From IMG/VR virus record IMGVR_UViG_3300043410_000387, positions 1-22,943 of that record: a stretch of 22,943 nt of DNA. One strand, given 5' to 3'. Made by a program: the position numbers and the translations under genes. This DNA comes from a virus. The notes beneath the pieces were generated by a model that was not told where the DNA came from, did not search any database, and saw only the letters and a list, made by a program, of their open reading frames with translations. Within the stretch, counting starts at the first letter, position 1, and every line of letters starts with the position of its first letter. Positions 6,221 to 14,986 of the stretch are shown piece by piece.

Positions 6221-6249
6221 ATTATACCACATTTTCAGTGGGTTGTACA
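6221..6249 (-). promoter_or_regulatory. Early-type promoter for the gp45 replication unit
   Basis: -35 TGTACA, 17-bp spacer ending in ATGTGG, -10 TATAAT on the minus strand. It lies within the last codons of the 124-aa gene, with the -10 overlapping its stop. About 28 nt separate the -10 from the gp45 ATG. Confidence 0.88.
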
Positions 6250-7445: not shown

Positions 7446-8594
7446 TTAAAATGGCGTTACTGTATCTGTCGCCACTTCTTGTTCTGTTTGTGGTGCTACC
7501 ACTGCTTTAGAATCTACTTTAGTGTAGAGATCTAAGAACGCTACTCGTGTATCTTCATCAAAGCGAGAGATACAAAGATCAATTGCTTTGGCACGATCAG
7601 CAAAGATGCCATATGTTCGTGCGATATGTACTAAGCGACGAGTAGAGATAAGATCGTCTACGCCACCGTCCTTATATGTCTGACGAATGATATCTGCCCA
7701 AGTTGTAAGGTTATCTGCAAATTCACCATCAAGTTTGCCATAAGCTTCCATAGCGTTAAGGATAATCTTCTTCTCAACAGCAATTGAAGGATATGGTTGT
7801 TCAATCGTTGCGACGAAACGTTCAAGGAAGGCTTCATCAAGGATACGTGCTCCAGTAAAACGACCGTCCTCTGATCCTCTGCCTTTTGTATTAGCTGTTG
7901 CAATCACATTGAAGCCAATCTCGGGATTCACCACCGCACCTGTCTTCTTGATATACAAAGGCTTGCCTTCCAAAACTGCTTGTAAACACATGAGTTTATT
8001 TGATCCACGATCGATCTCGTCAATCAAGCAAATTGCACCTTGCTTCATGGCTTGTGGTACAGGACCATCACACCATACAGTTTCACCATTGACCAATCGG
8101 AATCCACCGATCAAGTCATCTTCATCTGTTTCTTCAGTAATGTTAACACGTACATACTTGCGTTTAGCTTGTGCACATGCTTGTTCAACCATCATAGTCT
8201 TACCGTTACCAGAAAGACCTGAGATGAAAACAGGATAGAATGCATTTGAGTCGATGATCTGTTTAATATCACGGAAGAATCCCCATGAAACATACATCGA
8301 ATCTTTTTGTGGTACTTCAATCTTCACTTGTTCAATTACCGTTTGCTTAACTGTTGCTTTAGGTTGATCTTCAACTTCTGCAACTGGTTGTTTTTTTAGT
8401 GGAACGACCGCTGCTAACATCTGAATTTGATATTTGCCTCGACCGACTCGATTTTCTGGTTTAGTGATAAAGTTAGGATAACCTAATCCCATATCGTTAG
8501 CATGATCGATCAATTCTTGTACATCAAAGATTGAACGGCCTGGAAACTTATCACCTAAAGTTTTTACAAATGCTTGTTTTACTTCTGCTTTCAT
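7446..8594 (-). CDS. cobS: CobS/MoxR-type AAA+ ATPase
   Basis: 382-aa AAA+ ATPase. Cyanophage homologues are usually labelled CobS (cobaltochelatase subunit). Walker A is GLSGNGKT (126-133), Walker B is LIDEID (190-195), sensor 1 is IATANT (231-236), the arginine-finger region is DEAFLERF (253-260), and sensor 2 is STRRLVHI. The insert after the Walker A and the GPVPQAMKQGAICLIDE layout are typical of the MoxR/CobS branch. An N-terminal domain (1-60) with GYPNFITKPENRVGRGKYQI may be a binding module, joined by a Val/Lys-rich linker. It lies beside the HExxH/VWA gene and shares its leader element AAGGTGTCCAA. MoxR-class ATPases act with VWA proteins as chaperone-like machines. No chelatase catalytic subunit is visible in the window. 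Confidence 0.92.
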   Translation of the reverse strand: MKAEVKQAFVKTLGDKFPGRSIFDVQELIDHANDMGLGYPNFITKPENRVGRGKYQIQMLAAVVPLKKQPVAEVEDQPKATVKQTVIEQVKIEVPQKDSMYVSWGFFRDIKQIIDSNAFYPVFISGLSGNGKTMMVEQACAQAKRKYVRVNITEETDEDDLIGGFRLVNGETVWCDGPVPQAMKQGAICLIDEIDRGSNKLMCLQAVLEGKPLYIKKTGAVVNPEIGFNVIATANTKGRGSEDGRFTGARILDEAFLERFVATIEQPYPSIAVEKKIILNAMEAYGKLDGEFADNLTTWADIIRQTYKDGGVDDLISTRRLVHIARTYGIFADRAKAIDLCISRFDEDTRVAFLDLYTKVDSKAVVAPQTEQEVATDTVTPF

Positions 8595-8596
8595 GG

Positions 8597-8607
8597 TTGG
8601 ACACCTT
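8597..8607 (-). promoter_or_regulatory. AAGGTGTCCAA leader element of the AAA+ gene
   Basis: Eleven bases containing the Shine-Dalgarno AAGG, 2 nt before the ATG. The identical 11-mer precedes the HExxH/VWA gene at 10945-10955, suggesting common translational control. Confidence 0.5.
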
Positions 8608-8648
8608 TCACTGTTTTACATTACAAAATAATACTGTCTATAGGGTAT

Positions 8649-8677
8649 ATTATACCACACTTTTAGCTCGTTGTACA
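8649..8677 (-). promoter_or_regulatory. Early-type promoter for the AAA+ gene
   Basis: -35 TGTACA, 17-bp spacer ending GTGTGG, -10 TATAAT on the minus strand, with a leader of about 48 nt to the ATG. A run of ten G (minus strand, 8681-8690) lies immediately upstream, 3 nt from the -35. Confidence 0.88.
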
Positions 8678-8680
8678 TAG

Positions 8681-8690
8681 CCCCCCCCCC
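8681..8690. repeat. C10/G10 homopolymer tract
   Basis: Ten consecutive C on the plus strand, in the 101-bp gap between the HExxH/VWA gene stop and the AAA+ gene's promoter. It is unusual in such AT-rich DNA and prone to slippage. Confidence 0.9.
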
Positions 8691-8695
8691 TTCTT

Positions 8696-10945
8696 TTACG
8701 CAATTGCATCAACAAAAGCGTTCAGCAGGATACGGTTTACACGCTTGGCCTTAGTCATCTTAGCGAATGCAGTCTTGATCTTATTCTTGCTTGCACCATC
8801 TTCTACAAGCTCACCAAACTCATCCTCTACGATGTCCATATACTTTGTACATAGACCGAAATAGCGATCATAACCAAACACATTATCTTCAATAAGAGCT
8901 TTATTCTTATTCATCTGGTTTGTGTACTTGTCTTTGTACTTAACATACATGCCAGCTGGAACTTCGCCCATAACTTTGTTGATGGCTTGGTTACGATACT
9001 GACTAATGAAGAATCCAAGCACATTACTATTGGTGTTCTTCTTTAAGAACTTCAAGAGCTCTTCAGTCATGTTCGAACCAGTAACTGAATTGACTTTCAA
9101 TGCATGGCCATCAACTCGTACGATTGCATTACGACCACGATAACTATAGAAGCTCTTAGTCTCTAAACGATGCTTGTCACCGTCTTCAGTCATACGAACT
9201 TGGAAGTTGTCAGAGTCACCATCTGATAAGAACATGGCTGTCATATTCTCAATGTTATGCTTAGCCTTATATGTCTTAATCATGTCATTTGCTAACACGA
9301 TACATGTATTCAATGGAGTGCTATGTAACTGGTTCCATTTGTTGATGTACCAATTTGTCATCTGACCGTCCCATGCCATTGACAAGTGCCATAGCATGTC
9401 TTGACCTTTTTGATACTCTGCACGTGTCATGCGAGATGACATTAGGTTCAGCAGATTAAACTTCTCAGGGATAATCTCGCAATCAGAGAAGTCTTCCCAT
9501 TTTTGATTACGATCATCGTTATCATCGCGCACACGAGTAGTGAATGCATACACTTCAAATGGGATCTGAACCATGCGACAGAATAATGTTAAGTTCAGCA
9601 GCTGACGAATAGTTGGTCCAATGTTGTCTTGCATTGATCCACTAAAGTCGATGAACATCATCATACCGTGGTTCTTATAATTTGCAAGCTTAGTAGACTT
9701 TAAGAAGATGTCCTCTGAATACTTGTAAGCATGCAACTTATTAGTGTTGATGATACCGGTCTTTTGAACACTTGAGCGAGAGTACTGATATGCTGCTTTA
9801 CGTAGCTCAAACTCTTTAGCCATATATGCTGCAGCCATCTCTGTGTCAGACTTGAACTTTGTGAACTTGTCTTTTAGTTCAATGCGACGATCATCAATAA
9901 GTTCTCTAGCATACTCATTATGAAGTGTGCGTAGATCTTCTTCCCACTTAGTATAGTATTCTTTATAATCGATCTCAACATTTGGTTGACGGATCTTATT
10001 GATCGTGAATACCATCGTGTCTTTTAGATCATCATTTGCAAGCAACTCATTCTCGCGTTCACGGAAAGCTTTATCAGTAAGAGATTCCATTGAAGCTTCT
10101 GGTTCATCTTGCTGAGATTTTTCATCTTGCTGAGATTTTTGTTTAGGACCTTCAGTCACGTCTTTGTCTGCTAAAGGATCTTGTCCTTCATAGTCATGGC
10201 CTTTACCTGTTTGACCATCTGCAGCTTGTTCGTCTTCTTCTTGCTGAGGTTGCTCTTGCTCTGGTTTTTCATAGTCATCAGGACTATCTTCACCGTCCAT
10301 GTCATCTTCAAGATCGACAATCTCTGGCAATGACACTTTACCATTTTCGTCTTTAGTAGATGCTTCGTCTAAAGCTTTTTGATATGCATAGATTTTTTTA
10401 GCAAGCTCTACAACTTCTTCAAATGTTTCAGTCTTAAATGCCGCATTATAAAAACCACGCTCAATAGCATCGAACTGAACTTCAATGTGTTGACCTAACT
10501 TAGATTTGACATTGATCTTATCGATCACGCGTACAGTATCCACATCAACATTATTTTGTTCGATGCCAAAGAAGTCTTCTTCCGATAATTGTTTGTATGC
10601 TTTTTGGAATTGTGAACGAAGACCAGGATACTTGTCTTGAACTTTGCGTTCAATACGTACGTCTTCTAACACATTAAGATATGCACGTGGTGCACCGTTG
10701 ACATCATCAACGGCGTCGTGCCATCCAACTGCAGGGGTATAAAGTGCATGTCCAACTTCATGACCTGTGAGTAAGTCATAGACTGCTTTACCTTTATTCT
10801 TCCATACAGGTAAAGCTAAGACACGCTTTTGAGGATCGAACCACGCTGTCTTATATGCACCGTGGATGACTTGAATATTTTCCTTAGCGAGTAATTTCGC
10901 TAAAGTCGATTGCTGTGATAAATTGACTGCAAGTTTTTCTAACAT
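8696..10945 (-). CDS. HExxH peptidase-like / VWA-domain protein (CobT-like)
   Basis: 749-aa protein with two recognisable ends. Near the N-terminus, LLTGHEVGHALYTP holds a zincin HExxH (62-66). A conserved-looking NVLEDVRIE (91-99) about 28 residues later could give the third zinc ligand (E94). Residues 210-285 are a strongly acidic, Gln-rich, probably disordered linker with a tandem KSQQDE repeat. The C-terminal part is a von Willebrand A domain with a MIDAS motif DFSGS (433-437) and a later SDGDSD. Acidic linker plus VWA is the layout of CobT/BchD and MoxR-partner proteins, but the zincin domain is not part of cobalt chelatase. It is probably the substrate-handling partner of the neighbouring AAA+ ATPase. 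Reported cyanophage relatives are labelled peptidase. Confidence 0.85.
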   Translation of the reverse strand: MLEKLAVNLSQQSTLAKLLAKENIQVIHGAYKTAWFDPQKRVLALPVWKNKGKAVYDLLTGHEVGHALYTPAVGWHDAVDDVNGAPRAYLNVLEDVRIERKVQDKYPGLRSQFQKAYKQLSEEDFFGIEQNNVDVDTVRVIDKINVKSKLGQHIEVQFDAIERGFYNAAFKTETFEEVVELAKKIYAYQKALDEASTKDENGKVSLPEIVDLEDDMDGEDSPDDYEKPEQEQPQQEEDEQAADGQTGKGHDYEGQDPLADKDVTEGPKQKSQQDEKSQQDEPEASMESLTDKAFRERENELLANDDLKDTMVFTINKIRQPNVEIDYKEYYTKWEEDLRTLHNEYARELIDDRRIELKDKFTKFKSDTEMAAAYMAKEFELRKAAYQYSRSSVQKTGIINTNKLHAYKYSEDIFLKSTKLANYKNHGMMMFIDFSGSMQDNIGPTIRQLLNLTLFCRMVQIPFEVYAFTTRVRDDNDDRNQKWEDFSDCEIIPEKFNLLNLMSSRMTRAEYQKGQDMLWHLSMAWDGQMTNWYINKWNQLHSTPLNTCIVLANDMIKTYKAKHNIENMTAMFLSDGDSDNFQVRMTEDGDKHRLETKSFYSYRGRNAIVRVDGHALKVNSVTGSNMTEELLKFLKKNTNSNVLGFFISQYRNQAINKVMGEVPAGMYVKYKDKYTNQMNKNKALIEDNVFGYDRYFGLCTKYMDIVEDEFGELVEDGASKNKIKTAFAKMTKAKRVNRILLNAFVDAIA
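10104..10139. repeat. 18-bp tandem duplication in the VWA gene linker
   Basis: Two exact copies of an 18-bp unit in frame, encoding the doubled peptide KSQQDE in the acidic linker. This is a recent, length-preserving expansion in a disordered region. Confidence 0.85.
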
Positions 10946-10955
10946 TGGACACCTT
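10945..10955 (-). promoter_or_regulatory. AAGGTGTCCAA leader element of the VWA gene
   Basis: Same 11-mer as at 8597-8607. Here it overlaps the A of the ATG, so the Shine-Dalgarno AAGG stands 6 nt before the start. Confidence 0.5.
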
Positions 10956-10986: not shown

Positions 10987-11015
10987 ATTATACCATAAAA
11001 AAGGGCACTTGTACA
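10987..11015 (-). promoter_or_regulatory. Early-type promoter for the HExxH/VWA gene
   Basis: -35 TGTACA, 17-bp spacer ending ATGG, -10 TATAAT. The -35 lies within the loop of the deformylase terminator, and the spacer holds its T-tract. Confidence 0.85.
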
Positions 11016-11044: not shown

Positions 11045-11524
11045 CTATTTTTTCTTTGCATGCTTTAGTGCCAATGCCCGTTTAAGCGGTGATGCACGTT
11101 TTAAGAAGTTTGTACCTTCCATATGGTCGTATTCATGCTGAATGATACGTGCTGTAAGACCGCTAAAGTCTGCAGTAATACGTTCACCTTCTTGGTTAGT
11201 GTACTCAACCCTAATCTGCTTAGGACGCTTTAAGTTGATAAACACGCCAGGTTGTGATAAGCAACCTTCTTCAAACATCGTTTCATCCTTAGAATATTCC
11301 ACGATCTTAGGATCGAAGAATGTCTCAGCAAAATCATTGAATGCAATACAAAAGATACGGTTATCAATACCAACTTGATTTGCTGATAGACCGATACCAT
11401 TAAAGAATTTGCACGCATTAACTAGTTGTTCAGCAAACTTAGGCTTGTCTTCTACTTCTTTATATTCTACCACTTTAGTTAAGAGTGGATCATCATATGG
11501 GATGAGTTGATAATTTAGTTCCAT
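11045..11524 (-). CDS. def: Peptide deformylase
   Basis: Metalloenzyme removing the formyl group from N-terminal Met of new proteins. All three family motifs are intact: GIGLSANQ (43-50), EGCLS (86-90, metal ligand C88) and HEYDH (130-134, ligands H130/H134, catalytic E131). The length is 159 aa, short at the C-terminus as in other phage and organellar-like deformylases, with a basic Lys-rich end. The ATG at 11524 overlaps the gp46 stop (TAATG). Deformylases are known auxiliary genes of marine T4-like phages, thought to favour translation of rapidly made proteins. This copy is transcribed with gp55-47-46 and is followed by a terminator. Confidence 0.96.
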   Translation of the reverse strand: MELNYQLIPYDDPLLTKVVEYKEVEDKPKFAEQLVNACKFFNGIGLSANQVGIDNRIFCIAFNDFAETFFDPKIVEYSKDETMFEEGCLSQPGVFINLKRPKQIRVEYTNQEGERITADFSGLTARIIQHEYDHMEGTNFLKRASPLKRALALKHAKKK

Positions 11525-14957: not shown

Positions 14958-14986
14958 ATTATACCACATTAATAACGAAATGTACA
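14958..14986 (-). promoter_or_regulatory. Early-type promoter for gp55-47-46-deformylase
   Basis: -35 TGTACA, 17-bp spacer ending ATGTGG, -10 TATAAT on the minus strand, with a leader of about 30 nt to the gp55 ATG. It stands back to back with the plus-strand promoter at 15016-15044. Confidence 0.88.

Follow-up and report, generated by a model that had tools for sequence, protein, structure and literature searches.

The viral DNA fragment IMGVR_UViG_3300043410_000387 (22,943 nucleotides, called as a whole the window here) carries two adjacent genes, one for a CobS-like AAA+ ATPase and one for a protein that combines a zincin-type HExxH domain with a VWA domain. The pair is best explained as a phage homologue of CobS and CobT whose CobT-like subunit still has an intact zinc site, i.e. 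an AAA+/VWA machine with a gluzincin-like metallopeptidase that is ancestral-like to CobST (probability about 0.6). This reading draws on homology to CobT over the whole length by way of intermediates, on the conservation of HExxH and a downstream Glu, on the co-occurrence with an AAA+ protein of the likely CobS lineage, on the lack of any CobN in the phage records searched and on a promoter class common with replication genes. Because the phage partner keeps an intact zinc-enzyme site that CobT has lost, a role of the virus pair in cutting or remodelling proteins, and not in vitamin B12 synthesis, is suggested. A wider proposal, for which we would give slightly less than even odds, is that CobS/CobT was originally a metallopeptidase gated by its AAA+ partner and belonging to phages and phage-like plasmids, that the cobaltochelatase arose by cellular takeover and loss of the zinc site, and that cobS, a core gene found throughout the cyanophages, serves proteolysis or protein remodelling during infection and not B12.

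The zinc site of the CobT-like protein

An earlier note, made from the sequence alone, described the second protein as a zincin HExxH domain, a long acidic linker and a VWA domain with a metal ion-dependent adhesion site (MIDAS). All of these are present on the (-) strand (Table 1), and the MIDAS is completed by T543 and D575 beside DFSGS 433-437. For an unbiased count of HExxH, relatives were collected with patterns from the VWA half alone (VWA-only scan), which avoids the circularity of loci selected by GHEVGHA. The scan returned 74 long proteins of the window family. Two have no HExxH and, since both are N-terminally truncated, the motif is kept in 72 of 72 complete N-termini. The residues H62, E63, H66, N91, E94, D95, R97 and I98 are identical in all 68 aligned relatives (68/68), as are the MIDAS residues D433, S435, S437, T543 and D575. 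H62, E63, H66 and E94 are also among the 19 invariant columns across 73 N-domains, and each zinc-site position uses both synonymous codons (CAT/CAC, GAA/GAG) among 141 different proteins. The identity of the zinc site thus reflects selection and not chance, because its residues are invariant at a mean column identity of only 33% in the relatives' alignment while their codons vary synonymously. Conservation of HExxH across phage homologues, on which the earlier note had made its reading depend, is therefore found in the window family.

In the full-length model (predicted local distance difference test, pLDDT, 80.5; predicted template modelling score, pTM, 0.76) the linker is disordered. Within this linker 18 bases are exactly duplicated in tandem (window 10103-10138, KSQQDE twice). 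The N-domain modelled alone (pLDDT 89.9) has HExxH on helix 52-69 and the downstream Glu on a second helix, 87-105. Its structure matches are weak (Z 4.3-6.0), and almost all of the top ones are HExxH metallopeptidases (Ste24p, ArdC, BepA, PprI/IrrE, minigluzincins and BlaR1). As judged from sequence and model, it is probably a gluzincin-like metallopeptidase domain. The VWA model is closest to the MIDAS domain of Midasin (Z 16.4), and the NorD VWA bound to NorQ reaches Z 15.4; Midasin/Rea1, however, is a single-chain eukaryotic ribosome-assembly machine. The CobT structures 9uka and 21vu are not among the structure matches listed and are possibly newer than the structure library (April 2026).

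When the window family is compared directly with cellular CobT by hhalign, significance is reached in the VWA part alone (E 1.3e-8, 110 columns). The VWA domain with its MIDAS and the helical region ahead of it are features shared with CobT. The CobT equivalog TIGR01651 of NCBIfam does not match the window VWA protein, and phmmer and the A3 profile find only chance and acidic-linker noise among PDB sequences. The intermediates come from a second phage and plasmid clade of CobT-like proteins, sampled by a VWA-only scan of its own (80 loci fetched). In its phage members (Klebsiella, Rhizobium, Pseudomonas and Vibrio phages) the VWA half is CobT_C and the N-domain bears HExxH in most cases. The Klebsiella/Rhizobium-type clade can be aligned to both sides, with 590 columns matched to cellular CobT (E 1.5e-64) and 422 to the window family (E 1e-27). 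A Klebsiella phage N-domain with an intact HEVGH obtains 81 bits on PF06213 (cut-off 26.1), and the profile of this clade matches the N-domain of the solved CobT 9uka_G (E 2e-9), with DHEvAH opposite DSMALR. Profile against profile, the N-domain of the window family scores 28.9 with that of CobT, whereas none of 60 column shuffles exceeds 17.3 and the reversed profile gives 12.9; NVLEDVRIE is set opposite FDAVEQARVE of CobT. In the joint alignment, RGF[LI]DHEV[AG]H.LFTD of the phages is matched to RGxxDxxALRLRHHD in cellular CobT, and NxxEDxxIE to FDAxEQxRVE.

At the zinc-site columns, where the window protein has H62, E63, H66 and E94, none of the 19 aligned cellular CobT proteins has an HExxH. 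CobT_L131, considered as a cellular CobT with an intact site, was rejected: its HExxH-like match lies outside the aligned site, and the aligned columns read S, Y, R. According to these alignments, cellular CobT has the same N-domain but without the zinc ligands, DHEVAH having become DAxALR and NxLEDxxIE having become FDAxEQxRVE; the two phage genes are homologues of CobS and CobT. It had been argued that CobT has no zinc peptidase and that the pair is for this reason not CobT-like. Cellular CobT is indeed without zinc ligands, but its N-domain is the same domain in degenerate form. If the phage zinc site is active, the CobT N-domain solved in 9uka and 21vu would be explained as a dead metallopeptidase. 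No paper linking CobT with HExxH was found within the literature collection searched.

On a tree of zinc-site loss built without the motif columns, four state changes are enough, a single one leading to cellular CobT (100/100) and another three among the phages. The data do not fix the root, and it is simpler to read the tree as starting from an intact zinc site. Independent losses with the VWA protein kept are seen in an Acinetobacter plasmid (L374, QEVAK) and in loci L189, L226, L232, L229 and L245. A zinc motif variant one residue longer (HEAAGH-type, HExxxH) occurs in the phage CobT-like proteins of L233, L255, L259 and L261. In three further loci (L228:4956-7714, L230:4983-7741 and L249:4968-7552) the CobT-like protein is split into genes for a zincin half and a VWA half with a TAATG overlap, a domain fission whose two halves are probably coupled in translation.

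AAA+ partner, promoters and CobN

The AAA+ protein carries every ATPase motif, as the earlier note had stated (Walker A, Walker B, TAN, ER and RR), and all are invariant or nearly so across relatives as far out as the Ochrobactrum phage. Its tree took in NorQ/CbbQ, the MoxR partners of DUF2201, cellular CobS and both phage sets. The window protein falls inside the phage clade (support 100/99), and the phage sets together with CobS exclude NorQ and MoxR (96/69, branch not starred); in view of the latter support, the assignment to the CobS lineage is likely rather than certain. Far outside this group (branch 5.7, 100/100) lie the MoxR partners of DUF2201. The protein had previously been taken for a MoxR rather than a CobS, which this grouping does not support. 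TIGR01650 (CobS) gives it 67 bits and the equivalog cut-off of 558 is not reached. AAA+ matches in Staphylococcus, Listeria, Enterococcus and Gordonia phages were left out because their tested neighbours have no significant match to CobT; the Gordonia phage neighbour does carry HExxH and DxSGS.

The AAA+ gene lies at most 3 kb from the VWA gene and on the same strand in 125 of the 158 loci with room for it (median gap 98 bases). Four of the 8 records without a nearby AAA+ gene have one elsewhere (three contigs, 87, 94 and 50 kb long, and one metagenome-assembled genome).

Both genes have the parallel promoter (TGTACA-17-TATAAT) and the identical leader AAGGTGTCCAA that had been described as a sign of joint production, but the promoter also stands before gp43, gp45 and gp55 and is thus not particular to the pair. 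TGTAC-N-GGTATAAT occurs in five exact copies in the window where 0 are expected (1458-1486, 6221-6249, 8649-8677, 10987-11015 and 14958-14986, before gp43, gp45, the AAA+ gene, the VWA gene and gp55), and this set is probably a phage regulon. Almost every close relative has the extended -10 part of the motif in front of both genes. The TATAAATA late motifs are not above chance, so that the argument on early or late expression is carried by the TGTAC-GGTATAAT motif only. Since the promoter class is common to gp43, gp45 and gp55, the pair is tied to the replication programme, which suggests that it acts there rather than in late capsid maturation. Sharing a promoter says nothing about the client protein.

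No CobN was found among the window genes scanned, in eight phage records searched whole or in two large contigs. This agrees with the earlier note, which saw no CobN-like subunit and would have yielded to a genuine CobS accompanied by a phage-encoded CobN. The Klebsiella-type CobT-like protein occurs in 969 plasmid records (tblastn), 229 of them in Escherichia; the Ochrobactrum phage protein gave no match against plasmids. In the one E. coli plasmid copy that was read, HEVAH and NALEDVFIE are intact and an AAA+ gene lies next to it, and a control E. coli has no CobN. A sample of 76 alphaproteobacterial genomes contains 55 with CobT, of which 27 show no CobN; among these 27, G015, G020, G036 and G060 are single-contig genomes and others may be incomplete. 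Cellular CobST may have a role outside B12 synthesis.

Mechanism and competing explanations

By analogy with CobS and NorQ, the AAA+ subunit would form a hexameric ring on which the VWA domain would dock via its MIDAS. ATP hydrolysis would then pull on or remodel a client protein, and the gluzincin-like N-domain, tethered by the acidic linker, would cut it. In cells, the same machine would have lost its zinc site and been adopted as the ATPase motor of the cobaltochelatase. The protease activity of the phage pair is inferred from family knowledge and from NorQ-NorD, and several points weigh against such a machine. The N-domain resembles known structures only weakly (Foldseek E 0.14 at best, Z no higher than 6.0), and none of the Pfam peptidase families matches it well. 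Direct hmmscan of the window VWA protein against Pfam and NCBIfam gives no match, PF06213 and PF11775 included, and its tie to CobT runs through intermediates and profiles. Several phage and plasmid lineages without the zinc site still keep the pair, so catalysis is not always needed. The metal site could also serve metal handling and not proteolysis. No biochemical test of the cyanophage pair was found in the literature looked at, and no activity is known.

In the proposal of PMC8651126, phage CobST borrows the CobN of the host, inserts cobalt and raises vitamin B12 during infection. The AAA+ protein, N-domain, linker and VWA domain of the window pair are homologous to those of the aerobic cobaltochelatase CobS/CobT (TIGR01650/TIGR01651, PF06213+PF11775; PDB 9uka, 21vu), and CobN-family proteins are present in cyanobacterial hosts (the family is found in Synechococcus elongatus, a relative of the cyanophage hosts). 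However, the window proteins score far below the equivalog cut-offs, and the zinc site that real CobT has lost is strictly selected in their family. No CobN is found in the phage records searched, E. coli has the pair on phage-like plasmids although it is without CobN, and about half of the CobT-bearing alphaproteobacterial genomes sampled show none either. A cobaltochelatase motor is therefore improbable. It is likewise unlikely that the pair is a machine for the insertion or remodelling of metal cofactors in the manner of NorQ-NorD, with an N-terminal site that would hold a metal in a structural or delivery role without cutting. NorQ-NorD and CbbQ-CbbO also combine an AAA+ ring with a VWA partner, NorD complexed with NorQ is among the closest VWA folds, and the zinc site was lost repeatedly, so the machine can evidently do without it. 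Yet the catalytic E63, which plain metal binding would not need, is kept in all aligned members of the window family, peptidases make up nearly all of the top structure matches of the N-domain, and the AAA+ proteins NorQ/CbbQ fall outside the CobS/phage group, unlike that of the window.

Membership in the cellular system of MoxR and DUF2201 (metallopeptidase-VWA) is very improbable. The layout is common to both, with adjacent genes for an AAA+ protein and for an HExxH and a VWA-like domain, but the AAA+ partners are far apart on the tree, the comparison of the N-domain with the PF13203 profile gives no significant match, and no sequence kinship is detectable beyond a short VWA motif. The earlier view of the pair as a MoxR-VWA module and not a cobalt chelatase can accordingly be kept in part: the pair is an AAA+/VWA machine whose zinc-peptidase-like site is conserved, has no phage CobN in the records searched and is probably no cobaltochelatase, but its AAA+ protein is unlikely to be a MoxR.

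The preferred reading, a CobS/CobT homologue pair with an intact zinc site, also bears on existing annotation. cobS has long been listed as a cyanophage core auxiliary metabolic gene for vitamin B12 and serves as a marker for communities of myo-cyanophages (PMC3037559, PMC9983427), whereas the "peptidase" annotation of cyanophages was called a mistake (PMC8651126). The conservation of the zinc site does not support the latter judgement. Both labels, CobT and peptidase, would be partly right, because the protein appears to be homologous to CobT and to have kept a metallopeptidase-like site intact. Should this site be active, much annotation is wrong and a common ocean viral gene pair is a protein-cutting or remodelling machine.

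Distribution, gene neighbourhood and coordinates

The source record is a 22.9 kb IMG/VR fragment of a T4-like myovirus. The AAA+ protein matches phrog_249 ("porphyrin biosynthesis/CobS", E 5e-114) and the VWA protein phrog_459 ("peptidase", E 8e-202). Among isolate phage records, tblastn matches the VWA protein in 463 and the AAA+ protein in 750, with equal counts for both in Synechococcus (365), Prochlorococcus (24) and "Cyanophage" (61) records. As both families are known in phages, syntenic in Kyanoviridae and present in hundreds of isolate genomes, the pair is not the undescribed system it had been thought to be but a pair of known cyanophage core genes (PMC3037559, PMC8651126). In P-SSM4, cobS and the "peptidase" (PSSM4_124, PSSM4_122) belong to the same two families and stand in the same neighbourhood (gp46, zincin-VWA, CobS, gp45), although the identity to the window proteins is only ~32% (VWA) and ~50% (AAA+). 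Unlike P-SSM4, the window has a peptide deformylase gene (11045-11524) between gp46 and the VWA gene, which it adjoins, as in Ochrobactrum phage OC.

The genes of the window are, in order, a partial gp43, Hsp20, RegA, gp62, gp44, DsbA-like, gp45, dGTP diphosphohydrolase-like, helix-turn-helix, the AAA+ gene, the VWA gene, peptide deformylase, gp46, gp47, gp55, 2-oxoglutarate oxygenase, UvsW, UvsY, tail tube, gp23, gp22 and gp21. No tRNA genes were found in it.

Table 1. Positions of the gene pair, its motifs and its expression signals in the window (aa, amino acids; ORF, open reading frame; RBS, ribosome-binding site)
Feature	Position	Strand	Basis
CobS-like AAA+ ATPase (phrog_249), 382 aa	7446..8594	-	ORF, profile matches, motif conservation, tree
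Walker A GLSGNGKT, aa 126-133	8196..8219	-	sequence
Walker B LIDEI, aa 190-194	8013..8027	-	sequence
Sensor-1-like TAN, aa 233-235	7890..7898	-	sequence, conservation
Putative arginine finger ER, aa 258-259	7818..7823	-	conservation; role inferred from AAA+ family knowledge
Sensor-2-like RR, aa 319-320	7635..7640	-	conservation; role inferred
CobT-like zincin-VWA protein (phrog_459 "peptidase"), 749 aa	8696..10945	-	ORF, profile matches, model
Gluzincin-like N-domain (probable), aa 1-200	10346..10945	-	model pLDDT 89.9; weak structure matches, almost all of the top ones HExxH metallopeptidases
HEVGH zinc motif, aa 62-66	10748..10762	-	sequence, conservation
NVLEDVRIE, aa 91-99; E94 putative third zinc ligand	10649..10675	-	conservation
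Acidic linker, aa 201-285	10091..10345	-	pLDDT <50 at 201-284; 35% D+E
VWA domain, aa 421-749	8699..9685	-	model, structure matches
MIDAS DFSGS, aa 433-437	9635..9649	-	sequence, conservation
Promoter-like TGTACA-17-TATAAT upstream of VWA gene	10987..11015	-	motif search; extended -10 kept in relatives
Promoter-like TGTACA-17-TATAAT upstream of AAA+ gene	8649..8677	-	motif search; extended -10 kept in relatives
Leader/RBS AAGGTGTCCAA of VWA gene	10945..10955	-	sequence
Leader/RBS AAGGTGTCCAA of AAA+ gene	8597..8607	-	sequence

The VWA gene of the phage family is also seen on contigs binned as bacterial metagenome-assembled genomes (L026-L034; Gammaproteobacteria, Rhodopirellula, Muricauda and others), which are probably misbinned phage contigs. 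Between the VWA and AAA+ genes of the window, a run of ~10 consecutive G is present (8680-8690).

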